DNA of 64,000 nucleotides from an uncultured Neokomagataea sp. (lineage in GTDB: Bacteria; Pseudomonadota; Alphaproteobacteria; Acetobacterales; Acetobacteraceae): the NCBI RefSeq assembly GCF_946476835.1, contig NZ_CAMKWA010000001.1:124001-188000 (forward strand), written 5' to 3'. Shown piece by piece: positions 39,080-48,976 of the stretch. Both the position numbers and the translations under genes were made by a program. The first letter of the stretch is position 1. Each line of letters begins with the position of its first letter. Under the pieces are notes generated by a model. The model saw only the letters and a program-made list of their open reading frames with translations. It ran no database searches and was not told the DNA's origin.

Positions 39080-39873
39080 GAGTTCTTATTTCAGGGGCGG
39101 CGTCTGGGATTGGGCGTGAGTTAGCTTGCCGTTTAGCGCGGTCTGGTACGATCTTGTTTTTGGTGGATGTTCAGGCAGAGGGTCTGGAGCAGACGCGGCA
39201 TGATTGTGTGGCGCGTGGGGCGGATGTGCGGAGTGTCGTGCTGGATGTACGAGATCGTGCAGGTGTGAGTGCTTGGGTGAAGAGTGCTCAGCGATTGGAT
39301 CATGTGTTTATTTGTGCTGGGATTACTGGGGGTAGGCCGCCTTCGGATGGTGATGGCGTTGCGTTTGAGGAAGAAGAACGGGTCCGCGCAATGTTTGCGG
39401 TGAATTGTGATGGCGTGTTGAACGTTTTGTATCCGGCGTTGGCCATTATGCGGCACGGGAAGCCTAATGCGGCGGGGGTTCGTGGGCGTATTTGCGTGAT
39501 GTCTTCCGTTGCGGGGTTCGTTTCTTATCCGGGTACGCCGTCTTATTCTGCATCCAAGGCTGCGGTGGATAGGTTTTTGGTGGCGATGGCGCCATCTGTC
39601 GAAGCATTAGGTATTACGTTGACGTCTGTGTGTTGCGGGTTTGTGGACACGGCGATGGTATGGCGGAATGGTTTCCCGATGCCGGGTCTAGTGTCGGTGG
39701 AGGAAGCCGTTTCGCGTATTGTGCTGGGTGTACAGCGGGGGAAGCGACGTGTGGTTTTTCCGTTGTGGATGGCGGTGGGGTCACGGTTGATGGATCTTTT
39801 GCCGCCACGCTGGGCGGAGCGGTGTTATTTACGGCAGCCTTCGGCACAGCCTGCGGGAATGCCGGATTTTTAA
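39076..39873 (+). CDS. short-chain dehydrogenase/reductase
   Basis: A classical SDR of 265 residues. Cofactor site SGAASGIGREL, LVDVQ after beta-2 (acidic Asp, so NAD is likely), FICAGITGG in place of NNAG, catalytic Ser in MSSVAGFVSYPG, and YSASKAA. The substrate is unknown. It is coupled to the lipase-like gene by a four-base overlap, suggesting a shared pathway, perhaps for a lipid or ester product. Confidence 0.82.
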   Translation: MRVLISGAASGIGRELACRLARSGTILFLVDVQAEGLEQTRHDCVARGADVRSVVLDVRDRAGVSAWVKSAQRLDHVFICAGITGGRPPSDGDGVAFEEEERVRAMFAVNCDGVLNVLYPALAIMRHGKPNAAGVRGRICVMSSVAGFVSYPGTPSYSASKAAVDRFLVAMAPSVEALGITLTSVCCGFVDTAMVWRNGFPMPGLVSVEEAVSRIVLGVQRGKRRVVFPLWMAVGSRLMDLLPPRWAERCYLRQPSAQPAGMPDF

Positions 39874-44713: not shown

Positions 44714-45667
44714 ATGTCTGAGATACCTTCTTCCGTTGAGATGCCCATCTGCGTGGCAGCTCTGTATAAATTTGTGCCAATTGAAGATTGCCCCTCTGTT
44801 CAGGCTTTGCTGAAGCAGGATGGGGAGGCGCTGGGCATTCGCGGGATTCTGCTGGTTGCTCCTGAAGGGTTGAATGGCACGATTGCGGGAACGGATGAGG
44901 CGATTACGGCTATTCTGACACGTATTCGCTCTTTGCCGGGATGTGCGGATATTGAGGTGAAATTCTCACGGGCGCCGGAGTTACCGTTCCGGCGTTTTAA
45001 GGTGCGGTTGAAGCGTGAAATTGTGACGATGGGGTGCCCGGATATTGATCCGCGGCATAGTGTTGGTCACTACGTTGCGCCGGAAGATTGGAATGATTTG
45101 ATTTCTGATCCGGATACGATTTTGATTGATACGCGTAATGATTACGAAGTGTCGATCGGGACGTTTAAGGGTGCTGAAGACCCGAAGACGACTAGCTTCC
45201 GTGAGTTCCCGGAGTGGTTCCGCAAGCGGCGGGAGGCTTTGGAGGCTGAAGGGCGCAAGCCAAAGATTGCGATGTTCTGTACGGGGGGCATTCGTTGCGA
45301 GAAATCGACGGCTTTTGCGCGCTCGGAAGGTGTGGAGGATGTGTACCACTTGCAGGGTGGTATTTTGAAATATCTGGAGACGGTGCCAGAGGAAAAGAGC
45401 ATGTGGGAAGGCGCGTGCTTTGTTTTCGACCAGCGCGTTGCGGTAGAGCATGGTCTCGAAATTTCACATTATGATCTGTGCCATGCGTGCCGTCGGCCGA
45501 TTTCTGAGACAGAAAAAGCCTCTCCGCTGTACGTTCAGGGTGTAGCGTGCCCGCATTGTCATAATGAACGCTCTGAAGAGCAACGGCACCGCTATGCGGA
45601 GCGTGAGCGGCAAGAGCGTCTGGCTTTGGAGCGTAAGACGGGCCATCTGGGGGTGCCGCAGAAGTAA
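44714..45667 (+). CDS. trhO: tRNA U34 hydroxylase TrhO (rhodanese family, YceA)
   Basis: TrhO makes 5-hydroxyuridine at position 34 of some tRNAs using oxygen. The 317-residue protein has the N-terminal acylphosphatase-like domain ([31 protein letters not shown]). The rhodanese domain reads [18 protein letters not shown], with active-site loop [15 protein letters not shown] (Cys). A C-terminal Cys-rich tail ([20 protein letters not shown]) follows. It starts nine bases after the heptosyltransferase stop, so they may share a transcript. Confidence 0.92.
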
Positions 45668-45694
45668 GGCGGGAAGGTCCGTTTTATTGTTCGC

Positions 45695-45766
45695 AGGTAG
45701 TTGGGAGCGAAAGACAGGTGGCCGAGAATAAGGAATTCGGACATCTGTCGTGGCAGCTCCTAGCCT
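45695..45766. ncRNA. possible structured RNA or terminator after trhO
   Basis: Nested complementary segments: AGG-TA and TA-CCT outermost, GGGAGC with GCTCC, GACAGGTG with CATCTGTC (one G-U), and inner GAAT with ATTC. This folds into one long imperfect hairpin about 70 bases in length. It could end trhO or the convergent island genes, or be a small RNA. Confidence 0.35.
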
Positions 45767-45796
45767 TCCCTAGAGAGAAGGCAGCATGTAAAATTC

Positions 45797-46228
45797 CTAT
45801 TTATTACGTTGGAGTTGCTGGAAAACTCCGAGCCGATCCGTAATTTGCCAATGCCCATTCAGACGATCTTCGCTGTCAAATGTGTAGATCGTTGCGCCTG
45901 ACATACGGATGATTCTGTTGGTTGCTGGAAAGCCGGGTAAATCACCTTTGTGCGTACCACTCCAAAACCACGACATTACGACGTTTTGGCCCTCGGCGAG
46001 CATGTCTTGAATATCAAATGCTTGGTCAGGGAACGCTGCCCTTGATTTCTGCACCCGATCTTTGAAGCCGATGAGATCTAGGGTTCTTCCGTCCCACAGG
46101 TCGCCAGGGTCATGCCGGATTGTATATGAATGTGCGATGTAATGGTCGGCCGCGTCTGCGTCGCCTTCATCCCAAACCTTCCGTATAAAGGCGACAAGTC
46201 GTTCTTTGCGCCTTTCCAACGCTGTCAT
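45797..46228 (-). CDS. SnoaL-like ester cyclase/NTF2-fold protein
   Basis: A 143-residue protein of the SnoaL/NTF2-like superfamily. FIRKVWDEGDADAADHYIA, PGDLWDGRTLDLIGFK and IYTFDSEDRLNGHWQITDRLGVFQQL are the usual blocks. It may be a cyclase, hydratase or binding protein; the substrate is unknown. It starts two bases after the DUF2239 stop and is probably translated from the same mRNA. Confidence 0.75.
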   Translation of the reverse strand: MTALERRKERLVAFIRKVWDEGDADAADHYIAHSYTIRHDPGDLWDGRTLDLIGFKDRVQKSRAAFPDQAFDIQDMLAEGQNVVMSWFWSGTHKGDLPGFPATNRIIRMSGATIYTFDSEDRLNGHWQITDRLGVFQQLQRNK

Positions 46229-46230
46229 GA

Positions 46231-46818
46231 TTACTCCTTTTCAGGATGGGGTTGGGCAAGCATTATTACATAGTCCTGAATGTCAGAAGGCCACGTTGCT
46301 ATTTGCTTGGTGAGTGCCTCATGGTTTTCAGCGAAGAGAGCGCGGATTGCATCCTCATAACCGGGCAAGTCGCCAGCTAATGCTGACAGAAACCGGTAGG
46401 CTCGCTCATGTGCTGCTTTGCGGGCAGTCTTACCGTCATCGGTACGACGCGCTTCGTCCACAAGACGACGAAGGGTCTGCGAGGCTCCTCCTGACTGTCT
46501 TGCAAGCCAATCCCAATGACGCGGTAGCAAAGTTATCTCCCGTGCCACCACACCCAGTTTTGGCCTGCCTCGCGACCGAGACGTCGTACTTTGCGCTTCA
46601 AGTGCACCACGCTCATTTAATCGTGTAACGATTTCTGCCGTTGTGCCGCGAAGGTCAAAGTCGATCACTGCACCAGAAAAATCGTCAAAAGTGAGCACAG
46701 TGCTTTGTATTTTGGCGTCCATTGACTTGATTGCGAGGGCTACGTCGATCAATGCGCCGCTTGCGACACGCTGGGTACCAGAAAAGGCGGTGCAGGATAT
46801 GGATAAAAACTTAGACAT
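46231..46818 (-). CDS. DUF2239 family protein
   Basis: A 195-residue protein of unknown role. The block SRSRGRPKLGVVAREITLLP and the following RHWDWLARQSGGASQTLRRLVDEAR are the DUF2239 signature. RGRPK resembles an AT-hook core and the rest could be a small helical DNA-binding unit, so a regulator is possible (inference). The ATG coincides with the predicted +1 of its promoter, so the message is probably leaderless. No ribosome site is present. Confidence 0.75.
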   Translation of the reverse strand: MSKFLSISCTAFSGTQRVASGALIDVALAIKSMDAKIQSTVLTFDDFSGAVIDFDLRGTTAEIVTRLNERGALEAQSTTSRSRGRPKLGVVAREITLLPRHWDWLARQSGGASQTLRRLVDEARRTDDGKTARKAAHERAYRFLSALAGDLPGYEDAIRALFAENHEALTKQIATWPSDIQDYVIMLAQPHPEKE

Positions 46819-46824
46819 TCCAAT

Positions 46825-46852
46825 ATTATACCCAGATAAAAATTGACGTCAA
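46825..46852 (-). promoter_or_regulatory. promoter of the DUF2239-SnoaL pair, leaderless
   Basis: On the minus strand TTGACG (46852-46847), 16 bases, TATAAT (46830-46825). The expected +1 is about 46818, the A of the DUF2239 ATG. The spacer holds the operator-like TACCCAGATA (46829-46838). Confidence 0.65.
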
Positions 46853-46864
46853 TATACCCGGGTA
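46829..46864. promoter_or_regulatory. twin operator-like sites TACCCAGATA and TACCCGGGTA
   Basis: Two ten-base sites, 46829-46838 and 46855-46864, differ at two positions and lie 26 bases apart centre to centre. One sits in each divergent promoter spacer. This is the arrangement expected for a repressor controlling both directions. Confidence 0.5.
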
Positions 46865-46871
46865 ATATATT
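46843..46871 (+). promoter_or_regulatory. divergent promoter of the GIY-YIG gene
   Basis: TTGACG (46843-46848), 17 bases, TATATT (46866-46871). Its -35 overlaps that of the opposite promoter inside the palindrome TTGACGTCAA. The spacer contains the perfect palindrome TACCCGGGTA (46855-46864). Confidence 0.6.
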
Positions 46872-46920
46872 CCATTGTTGAGGGCCGTAGCACAACGAGC
46901 CTAGAGCATGAGGTTGAGGT

Positions 46921-47259
46921 ATGAAGGGTTATAGTCGAAAGGCGGCGGTAGCAGCGTATAAAGAGCGGAAAGTCGAAGCCGGTATTTATGCCATTCGATG
47001 CACATCATCGGATCAGGTATGGGTTGGTAGTGCGCCTGATTTGGCGACTATTCAAAACCGTATCTGGTTCACGTTGCGGCAAGGAAGCGATCCGCATCGA
47101 TCGCTTCAAGAGGCGTGGATTACACATGGCAGTGACGCGTTTTCCTTCGAAATCGTCGAGAAAATGGATGATCAAGACGATCCGATCTACATTCGCCATT
47201 CGGCGCTTAAGAAACAACACGCTGAATGGGTCGTGAAGTTGAGCGGTATCCGTATCTAA
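46921..47259 (+). CDS. GIY-YIG nuclease family protein
   Basis: A small 112-residue protein with a GIY-YIG-like core. AGIYAIRCTSSDQVWVGSAPDLATI provides the GIY strand; the second motif is VWVG in place of YIG. NRIWFTLRQGSDPHRSLQEAW and a late Glu in SFEIVE follow. It may be an active nuclease or a degenerate member. The start has GAGGT immediately upstream. It is divergent from DUF2239 under the shared control region. Confidence 0.75.
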   Translation: MKGYSRKAAVAAYKERKVEAGIYAIRCTSSDQVWVGSAPDLATIQNRIWFTLRQGSDPHRSLQEAWITHGSDAFSFEIVEKMDDQDDPIYIRHSALKKQHAEWVVKLSGIRI

Positions 47260-47581
47260 TGTCTGACTACGGAGCATGACGCGCTGTTCCGGCTACTACA
47301 GCGCTTGAAACACGGACTAAGCTGACGGACGATATCCTATAGATGTTTGATCGGCTGATTGGGTAGTTGTTCCGCTGTGTTGAGTGTGGCGCGGGAGCTG
47401 TCCTGAAACGCGACCGACGAACGATCAACGGCAAACTCTGTCAGTTGGCGTGTAGCGGGAGAAGCAGGGCCGGATCGGTGTGGCAGCATATCAATTTGAC
47501 AGGGGGATTAGCTCCGTCCTTTGTGCCAGATTCTTCGTCCGTCATACGCCTCAGATCCTTAGTGCGTATCTGTGTCTTTCC
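47260..47581. other. 322-base gap holding transposase debris
   Basis: No intact gene. The first two thirds hold the decayed Tn3-like fragment at 47280-47462. The rest before the porin stop shows nothing I can name. Confidence 0.5.
47280..47462 (+). pseudogene. remnant of a Tn3-family transposase (decayed)
   Basis: Frame 47280 reads RAVPATTALETRTKLTDDIL, stop, MFDRLIG, stop, LFRCVECG, then VLKRDRRTINGKL. This resembles the internal part of Tn3-family TnpA, where an LTDA-type segment, MFDRLIG and a K-RD-INxK stretch follow each other. Two in-frame stops (TAG at about 47340 and 47373) make it non-functional. The similarity is recalled, not searched. It borders the accessory genes on their right. 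Confidence 0.45.
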
Positions 47582-48976
47582 TTAAAACTCTGCGTGCATA
47601 CGGGCGCCAAGAATGGAAACGGGGCCGCGGTCTTTATTATAGGCGGGGTTTCCGACCCATTGATAATCGAGGGTGAGGTGGCCGATGGGATGGACGGCGA
47701 GGTCGTAATACATCTCTATGATATGCTCGTCCCCGGCGTGGGGGAGTTGGCCATCCCCGACAAGGAGGCCGGTTCCACCAGCGGCGAGATAGGCTTTGCG
47801 ACGGCCGGATGCTGCGTTGATGACGCCTGCGACGCCGATGCGGTCATCGGAGCGGTGCCATAATGTGCCGTCAAAGGACAGGCCGAGTGCGAGAGAGCGG
47901 TCAATATCTGTGAATTCGTAGGTTTCGTAATGGCCATTGGCCCAGCCTGTACGGATAAAGGCTGCGATGTTTTTGGTCAGGGATTGCTCAATGGTGAGGC
48001 TGAGGCCTGGGCGGTTTTCCATGCGGCGGACATTGGCGGTGTTGGGCGTGGTTTCGGTGATTGTGCCAAGGCGTAGGGCATCAGAAAAGCGGCCCATACG
48101 GGCATGGGTTGTGAAAGCGGTAAGTAGGATTTTGCCGGGGAGTGTACCGATCTGGTGCCGTTCTTCGAGTTCTTCATCAATTTGGAATTGTTTGAAGCTT
48201 GTATCAATATCGGGGCTGTTGGGCACGATAGACATGAGGAAAGCACCGGAGCGTAGTGTCCAGCGGTCTTGTGTCCATTCCGTGGCGATGCCGGTGGTGT
48301 AGCCCCACGAATCTGCGGCGTAATCGAAGGTTCCGGTATCGATCAGGGACCAGTTCAGGAAGTCTGCCCGTGGGTCATGGGCGTAGCTGTTATTATCGTA
48401 GAGATCGGGTACGGAAAATTTCCCTATTGTGAGGACCAAGCGGTTCGGTGCTTGTTTGACTGAGAATTGGTTGAGGTCATCATCCACTCTGGTGGCGGTA
48501 CCACCGAGGTTGATGGTTTGCCGGAAGAAGGCGCGTTGGACACGGAAATAGGGTGTACCACGGCCGATTTTATAGGCTTCGCCACTGGAGAAACCGGCTA
48601 ATCCTAGGGTGTTACCAATGCCGAAGCCTTGATCAACTTCGCCATTGACCCAGATTTCACCGCCTTGCCACGGGTGCAGGCCGGCATAGAGGGTGAGGTC
48701 CCATGTTTCATCGCCGCGTGCGGCGGGCATGAGGCTTTGGGTGCCGGAATAGGGGGCGTGAAATCCGTCATGCCCTTGCCAGACGAGGGTTGATTGCGCG
48801 TGGAAGGCAAACAGATCGCTAGAGTCGGTTGTGTTAGGTTGGGCGGTTTCCGTCTCTATGAGGGGCGATAAAGCAGGAACAGCCCATGCAGGGTTTTCGG
48901 GTGCGAAAACCGCGGCAAGGCTGAAAGGTAAAAGGCTGTAGCGGCGGAGAGAGTGGTAAGCGGAGCGTACGATCAT
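47582..48976 (-). CDS. OprB-family carbohydrate porin
   Basis: An outer-membrane barrel of 464 residues for sugar uptake. The signal is near 1-32 (ending PAWA). OprB features are the FFRQTINLGG and APNRLVLTIGKFSVPDLYDNN blocks, DFLNWSLIDTGTFDYAADSWGY, and the ending NPAYNKDRGPVSILGARMHAEF with terminal Phe. Acetic acid bacteria have many such porins. It overlaps the upstream TonB-type gene by ATGA. Confidence 0.85.
   Translation of the reverse strand: MIVRSAYHSLRRYSLLPFSLAAVFAPENPAWAVPALSPLIETETAQPNTTDSSDLFAFHAQSTLVWQGHDGFHAPYSGTQSLMPAARGDETWDLTLYAGLHPWQGGEIWVNGEVDQGFGIGNTLGLAGFSSGEAYKIGRGTPYFRVQRAFFRQTINLGGTATRVDDDLNQFSVKQAPNRLVLTIGKFSVPDLYDNNSYAHDPRADFLNWSLIDTGTFDYAADSWGYTTGIATEWTQDRWTLRSGAFLMSIVPNSPDIDTSFKQFQIDEELEERHQIGTLPGKILLTAFTTHARMGRFSDALRLGTITETTPNTANVRRMENRPGLSLTIEQSLTKNIAAFIRTGWANGHYETYEFTDIDRSLALGLSFDGTLWHRSDDRIGVAGVINAASGRRKAYLAAGGTGLLVGDGQLPHAGDEHIIEMYYDLAVHPIGHLTLDYQWVGNPAYNKDRGPVSILGARMHAEF

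Follow-up and report, generated by a model that had tools for sequence, protein, structure and literature searches.

The 64,000-nucleotide stretch analysed here (the window), from an uncultured Neokomagataea sp., contains divergent genes for a DUF2239 protein and a small GIY-YIG domain protein, and the locus raises the question of what the short region between them does and which protein acts on it. The best explanation, to which we assign a probability of roughly 80%, is that this region serves the DUF2239 gene itself as an autoregulatory operator-promoter, of the repressor type and released by a signal.

The DUF2239 gene (46231..46818, minus strand) encodes a protein of 195 aa that belongs to the PF09998 family (E 2.8e-75), its match of 252.6 bits, against a cut-off of 25, covering positions 1-182 of 182. 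Two nucleotides 3' of this gene and on the same strand is a gene for a SnoaL-like protein (45797..46228; PF07366), which is likely to be on the same transcript; such a gene also adjoins DUF2239 at two other loci (L003 and L013). The GIY-YIG gene (46921..47259, 112 aa) is on the plus strand. The DUF2239 promoter (46825..46852, minus strand) has a -35 box TTGACG (46852-46847), a 16-nt spacer and a -10 box TATAAT (46830-46825), scoring 11/12, and the predicted GIY-YIG promoter (46843..46871, plus strand) has TTGACG (46843-46848), a 17-nt spacer and TATATT (46866-46871), scoring 10/12. By consensus match, both have sigma-70-type hexamers at a spacing of 16-18 nt, and the two -35 boxes overlap in TTGACGTCAA (46843-46852). 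Promoter-like sites number 5 across 45500-48500, compared with 2.3 (sd 1.7) in shuffled sequence.

Two palindromic sites 26 bp apart flank the -35 box of DUF2239. The inner one, O1 (46825..46842, minus strand; core 46829-46838, TACCCAGATA; matrix score 27.7), overlaps the DUF2239 -10 box. The outer one, O2 (46851..46868, minus strand; core 46855-46864, TACCCGGGTA; matrix score 28.8), is a perfect palindrome at the upstream edge of the DUF2239 -35 box and inside the spacer of the plus promoter. The window holds 4 matches to TACCCRGRTA at 3 places (the third is 39526-39535), a palindromic match being counted on both strands, where 0.26 were expected, and none of 100 shuffles reached 4. With the matrix built from DUF2239 promoters, O1 and O2 are the only places in the window that score at least 15. 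The original prediction, which had described two TACCCrGrTA sites 26 bases apart, the promoters and the genes, was therefore an accurate account of the window.

Such an arrangement could in principle consist of ordinary strong promoters and chance palindromes with no regulation at all, and one result from the organism's own genome is in keeping with that: the bare 10-mer is not enriched there (11 matches, 13 for the reversed control), so that it must be the arrangement, not the 10-mer, that is special. Inspection of 11 stretches of this genome revealed no second operator pair, and the best single site elsewhere is inside an ispG-like frame (a name read from the sequence). Strict paired patterns find nothing in the genome, the window locus included, because O1 reads CCCAGA. 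DUF2239 itself was found in just two of the 26 same-genus genomes searched (G000 and G016), and the locus therefore looks to be a local switch of sporadic occurrence. Among the control genomes, that of Caulobacter vibrioides carries DUF2239.

The chance explanation is refuted by the conservation of the sites, and we regard its likelihood as negligible. For this comparison 112 DUF2239 loci were gathered and reduced to 93 by removing 2 duplicates and 17 loci whose protein was at least 80% identical to another. The weight matrix, seeded with TAYCCGGRTA, converged to an 18-mer whose commonest bases, ATTTTACCCGGGTAAAAT, form a perfect palindrome, and a site was defined as a matrix score of at least 7 within 200 nt before the DUF2239 domain. 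By this definition the operator is present in 87/93 loci and at least two sites are present in 71/93, the last two being 25-29 bp apart in 57 of those 71. Control windows of 200 nt from the same loci contain a site in 8 of 1,794 cases and two sites in 1, and dinucleotide-shuffled upstream stretches yield, over 20 rounds, 5 positives among 93 on average and never more than 10. Training on half of the loci recovers 43/47 of the other half, although the training sites had been picked with all loci and this test is not fully independent. By record title, the operators occur in Alpha-, Beta- and Gammaproteobacteria, a Spirochaetales MAG (L042), a Gemmatimonas MAG (L016) and Deinococcota; L016 was redundant and is outside the 93, its sites being scored separately (15.6 and 20.7). 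The original prediction had proposed that the palindromes be looked for beside homologous genes, and they are indeed kept there.

The promoter layout is conserved along with the sites. In 46/87 loci an exact TTGAC precedes the inner site at the distance expected of a promoter, and the inner site covers the -10 box. Strong evidence supports the conservation of both operators and promoter layout. The overlapping -35 palindrome is a different matter: it is present in the window as had been claimed, but it is not general. Exact TTGAC in the GIY-YIG direction occurs at the tested position in 2/87 loci (a test that misses the window's own plus -35 box by register), and full outward hexamers scoring at least 9/12 occur in only 2/36 divergent loci, the window among them. 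No conserved outward promoter was found in the divergent DUF2239/GIY-YIG loci, and the overlap looks specific to the window.

The prediction of a leaderless DUF2239 message has fared better. The -10 box ends at 46825 and the DUF2239 ATG begins at 46818, the seventh base past that end, which makes transcription initiation (+1) on the A of this ATG a fair prediction for the minus strand; it is also the sole in-frame ATG, GTG or TTG from the upstream stop to 60 nt inside the gene. When +1 is placed seven bases after the -10 box at the other loci, it falls exactly on the A of the start codon in 11/93 and within 1 nt of it in 18/93, counts that lean upward because the choice of start codon favoured ATGs near the predicted +1. 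Many other DUF2239 loci have leaders of about 14-26 nt. The predicted zero-length leaders are independent of the start-codon rule in the window, which has one possible start, and at two Deinococcus plasmid loci (D. gobiensis and D. sp. QL22), where the sites are at -52 and -24, TTGACA separates them and the predicted +1 falls on the annotated ATG. A leaderless start of the DUF2239 gene is thus predicted to recur in distant lineages.

Which protein, then, binds these operators? The sites are found in 51/53 loci that have no GIY-YIG match in the stretch examined and in 36/40 loci that have one, arguing that it is DUF2239, and not the divergent gene pair, that they accompany. Among the six loci where no site was found, the pair immediately precedes a same-strand GIY-YIG gene upstream of DUF2239 in three (L026, L101 and L110), which indicates that the operator follows the unit's promoter; of the others, L036 is probably degraded, and L105 and L111 have diverged. 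DUF2239 had been put forward as the regulator in the original prediction, and it is now the likeliest candidate, on evidence that is good but indirect.

The protein has features that would suit this role. Its core, at about residues 84-127 (GRPKLGV..REVTLLPRHWDWLARQPGGAS..LRRLV..A), hardly varies among 38 aligned proteins, with 17 positions invariant in 38/38, as would be the case for a protein whose site is constant. One divergent case fits the idea of DUF2239 as the binder: in an Acinetobacter homologue with 37% identity (L299:765-814), the core LLPRH has become LQKKH and the site has changed to TTACCCTGATAA, with the copies 19 apart, a single instance in which core and palindrome both differ. 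The record that holds this homologue is labelled phage, yet cysN and cysD are next door.

Ribbon-helix-helix autoregulators such as MetJ, Arc, CopG and FitA act at short tandem palindromic operators over their own promoters, and the tandem short palindromes over the DUF2239 promoter follow the same plan. The core also reads like that fold, with a strand (REVTLLP), a short helix (99-106), a GGAS turn and a longer helix (111-127), and it could resemble a ribbon-helix-helix with a basic arm. The AlphaFold model (pLDDT 88.5) places the two helices after an extended stretch; residues 88-92 are below pLDDT 50, and the modelled monomer has no strand. In our reading, a ribbon-helix-helix, whose dimer places a two-stranded sheet in the major groove, could look this way as a single chain. 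Unlike these regulators, DUF2239 is about 195 aa long and has further conserved parts on both sides of the core and a GRPK arm, and it has no constant toxin partner. Comparison of its profile with five FitA-like sequences (PF22513) by hhalign detected no similarity, the alignment being 15 columns long, out of register and below 1% probability. Sequence and fold searches of solved structures with DUF2239 gave no usable match, the matches listed by Foldseek and VIA include no ribbon-helix-helix, and the window protein has no Pfam match beyond DUF2239.

The GIY-YIG protein is likely a co-regulated partner. Its model (pLDDT 90.3) has as its nearest solved fold the I-TevI catalytic domain (E 3.9e-6); the matches to 1mk0 and 1ln0 (E 3.9e-6 to 1.4e-5, TM 0.68-0.83) place it in the superfamily by fold, and the family sequence profile matches I-TevI at E 4.3e-9. 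In fold and profile it therefore resembles the I-TevI-type nucleases, from which it differs in being a stand-alone protein of 112 aa and in lacking conservation in the column aligned to R27. This residue and E75 are, we take it, the catalytic residues of I-TevI; the two solved I-TevI chains differ at both positions, and 1mk0 is titled E75A. The R27-aligned column (window residue 44) holds R in 0/15 family sequences, while residue 47 is R in 11/15, and E is absent from the E75-aligned column (residue 100), where the posterior scores of the alignment are low. Judged from these alignments, the GIY-YIG protein may not cut DNA. DUF2239 and SnoaL had no match in a defence-system library, and GIY-YIG had only weak ones (homing endonuclease, UzuA).

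These data bear on the possibility that the locus is a toxin-antitoxin-like module, in which DUF2239 would be an antitoxin-like repressor, the GIY-YIG protein a nuclease toxin, and the pair autoregulated. Autoregulatory operators, a ribbon-helix-helix-like core and an adjacent nuclease fold all lend themselves to such a view, which we nevertheless consider very improbable. A type II module is an adjacent co-transcribed pair, whereas 53/93 loci have no GIY-YIG match and the pair in the window is divergent; GIY-YIG is found in only 40/93 loci within the stretch examined, mostly (37) in divergent orientation. The absence of R from the R27-aligned column in all 15 sequences also speaks against a nuclease toxin, and the kinase, pump and hydrolase targets described below do not fit a toxin-antitoxin module.

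Similar operators also recur at unlinked genes. Single sites were sought in 19 DUF2239 carriers and the non-carrier G654 and gave mixed results, being at least about 1.8-fold over the reversed control in 10/20 genomes, G654 included; weak single sites are thus not specific, and they were abandoned for a paired pattern. G654, with no DUF2239 match in the search, has single sites two- to threefold over the reversed control.

Among 398 genomes of the phylum, the paired pattern matched in 21, of which 12 carry DUF2239 and 9 do not. Every match with TTGAC on either strand between the sites is in a carrier, whereas the 10 matches in the 9 non-carriers have no TTGAC there (judged by eye), and the reversed control gave 4 matches. 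Away from DUF2239 itself, the carrier matches precede genes for a MATE pump (G679), an APH-like kinase (G735), and an SDR and a SnoaL protein (both in G649). A homologue of the SnoaL-like protein of the window has an operator pair of its own (L146). The same kind of search in 68 carriers produced 49 matches (reversed control: 7), among them one before a second MATE gene (G754). By position, 26 of the 49 are at DUF2239 or its GIY-YIG operon and 5 others were examined; the remaining 18 are mostly G+C-rich by eye and probably due to chance.

Another paired pattern was applied to 219 genomes of one family (f63), where it gave 74 matches in 70 genomes and a single match in the reversed control. Of these matches, 38 are before GIY-YIG (with DUF2239 behind it in 32), 17 are before DUF2239 and 19 are elsewhere, namely before 16 kinase-like genes, 2 alpha/beta-hydrolases and 1 MATE gene, as named from sequence. 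The 32 units in which GIY-YIG is followed by DUF2239 bear on the proposal of a two-way switch between DUF2239-SnoaL and GIY-YIG: co-regulation of the two is supported, through this other layout, but a conserved pair of overlapping outward -35 boxes is not. Pfam analysis was run on two of the 16 kinases, both of which matched APH (E 4.8e-16 and 3.3e-20), and on one of the two hydrolases, both MATE proteins, the SDR and the SnoaL protein. The hydrolases with an operator pair are at L211 and L246; the best NCBIfam match of the former is the macrolide esterase model (E 4.3e-58), and because its 196.9 bits fall short of the cut-off of 420, it is a relative and not a member. Taken together, the pumps, kinase, esterase-like hydrolase, SDR and SnoaL read as a detoxification-like set, which makes a small molecule likely as the inducer.

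The distribution of the operator pair also helps to decide whether a different, widely shared transcription factor binds it, DUF2239 being merely its most constant target. This possibility draws on the fact that DNA binding by DUF2239 is itself deduced from comparison of sequences, and on two operator pairs, before GIY-YIG in G780 and before a kinase in G913, that occur in genomes without a PF09998 match, both of them draft assemblies. The pair nevertheless tracks DUF2239 through Alpha-, Beta- and Gammaproteobacteria, the Spirochaetales and Gemmatimonas MAGs and Deinococcus while the neighbouring genes change, and the matches in non-carriers of the phylum sample, as noted, have no TTGAC between the sites (reversed control, 4 matches). 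DUF2239 is present in 154/219 genomes of the family and in 69/70 of those with a pattern match, the exception being G780 (Fisher p 2e-12, kinship ignored, with most of the matches behind this value at DUF2239 or GIY-YIG themselves). Unlinked targets, by the pattern, occur in 19/154 carriers and 0/65 non-carriers (Fisher p 0.0012, kinship again ignored). A different factor is accordingly an unlikely explanation.

The kinases provide a second kind of link. Orthologues were sought in 80 chosen genomes of the family, 50 with DUF2239 and 30 without, and were found in 24; 23 of these have the operator pair upstream, with the sites 26-29 apart, and the 24th (G938) is fused to DUF2239. The sole kinase bearer among the 30 non-carriers is G913, a draft of about 160 contigs, and the pair before its kinase counts against a strict dependence on DUF2239. 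Inspection of nine long frames identified seven DUF2239-kinase fusions in one open frame (L184, L197 and L289-L293), each with operator sites upstream. L294 and L295 were ruled out as fusions when their frames were inspected. Regulator, operator and kinase are thus tied together, both by shared control and by fusion.

The following model accommodates these observations. DUF2239 would bind, probably as a dimer, to each of the two palindromes flanking the -35 box of its own promoter, and, because the inner site is over the -10 box, the bound protein would most likely block RNA polymerase and so repress its own synthesis. The protein would leave the DNA in response to a signal, probably a small molecule that the regions outside its core sense. 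Release in the window would free the leaderless DUF2239-SnoaL message and also GIY-YIG, the latter because the outer site falls within the plus promoter's spacer; other species would use the same pair to control the APH-like kinase, alpha/beta-hydrolase, MATE, SDR and SnoaL genes that it precedes. DUF2239 is, on this model, probably a DNA-binding autoregulator that represses a small regulon with a detoxification-like character.

Ligand-responsive local repressors of detoxification genes are familiar from the TetR and MarR families, and the autoregulation, the control of pumps and modifying enzymes, and the divergent layout would all be shared with them, if DUF2239 does act as proposed. DUF2239 differs from both in having no other Pfam match and no match among solved structures. 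The model can be extended to a new drug- or xenobiotic-sensing regulator family, with its operator conserved across several phyla, which would control pumps, a macrolide-esterase-like hydrolase and an APH-like kinase. The kinase fusions would then be sensor, regulator and enzyme in one protein, with phosphorylation of the inducer closing the loop, and GIY-YIG would be a non-catalytic partner. This extension is tentative, and we consider it doubtful in its full form.

No paper naming DUF2239, COG3644 (which we take to be the COG matching DUF2239) or PF09998 was found, in a search mostly of papers outside subscription, and among the listed papers that contain the letters TACCCGGGTA, none is on such an operator as judged by its title and the start of its abstract. 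The results suggest that DUF2239 is a previously unrecognised family of self-controlling gene regulators. If this is true, a family for which no paper was found would gain a function, a DNA target and a regulon, and the constancy of the operator would make it usable for seeking targets in any genome that bears DUF2239. The targets seen so far point to chemical defence, and the DUF2239-kinase fusions would represent an unusual regulator design.
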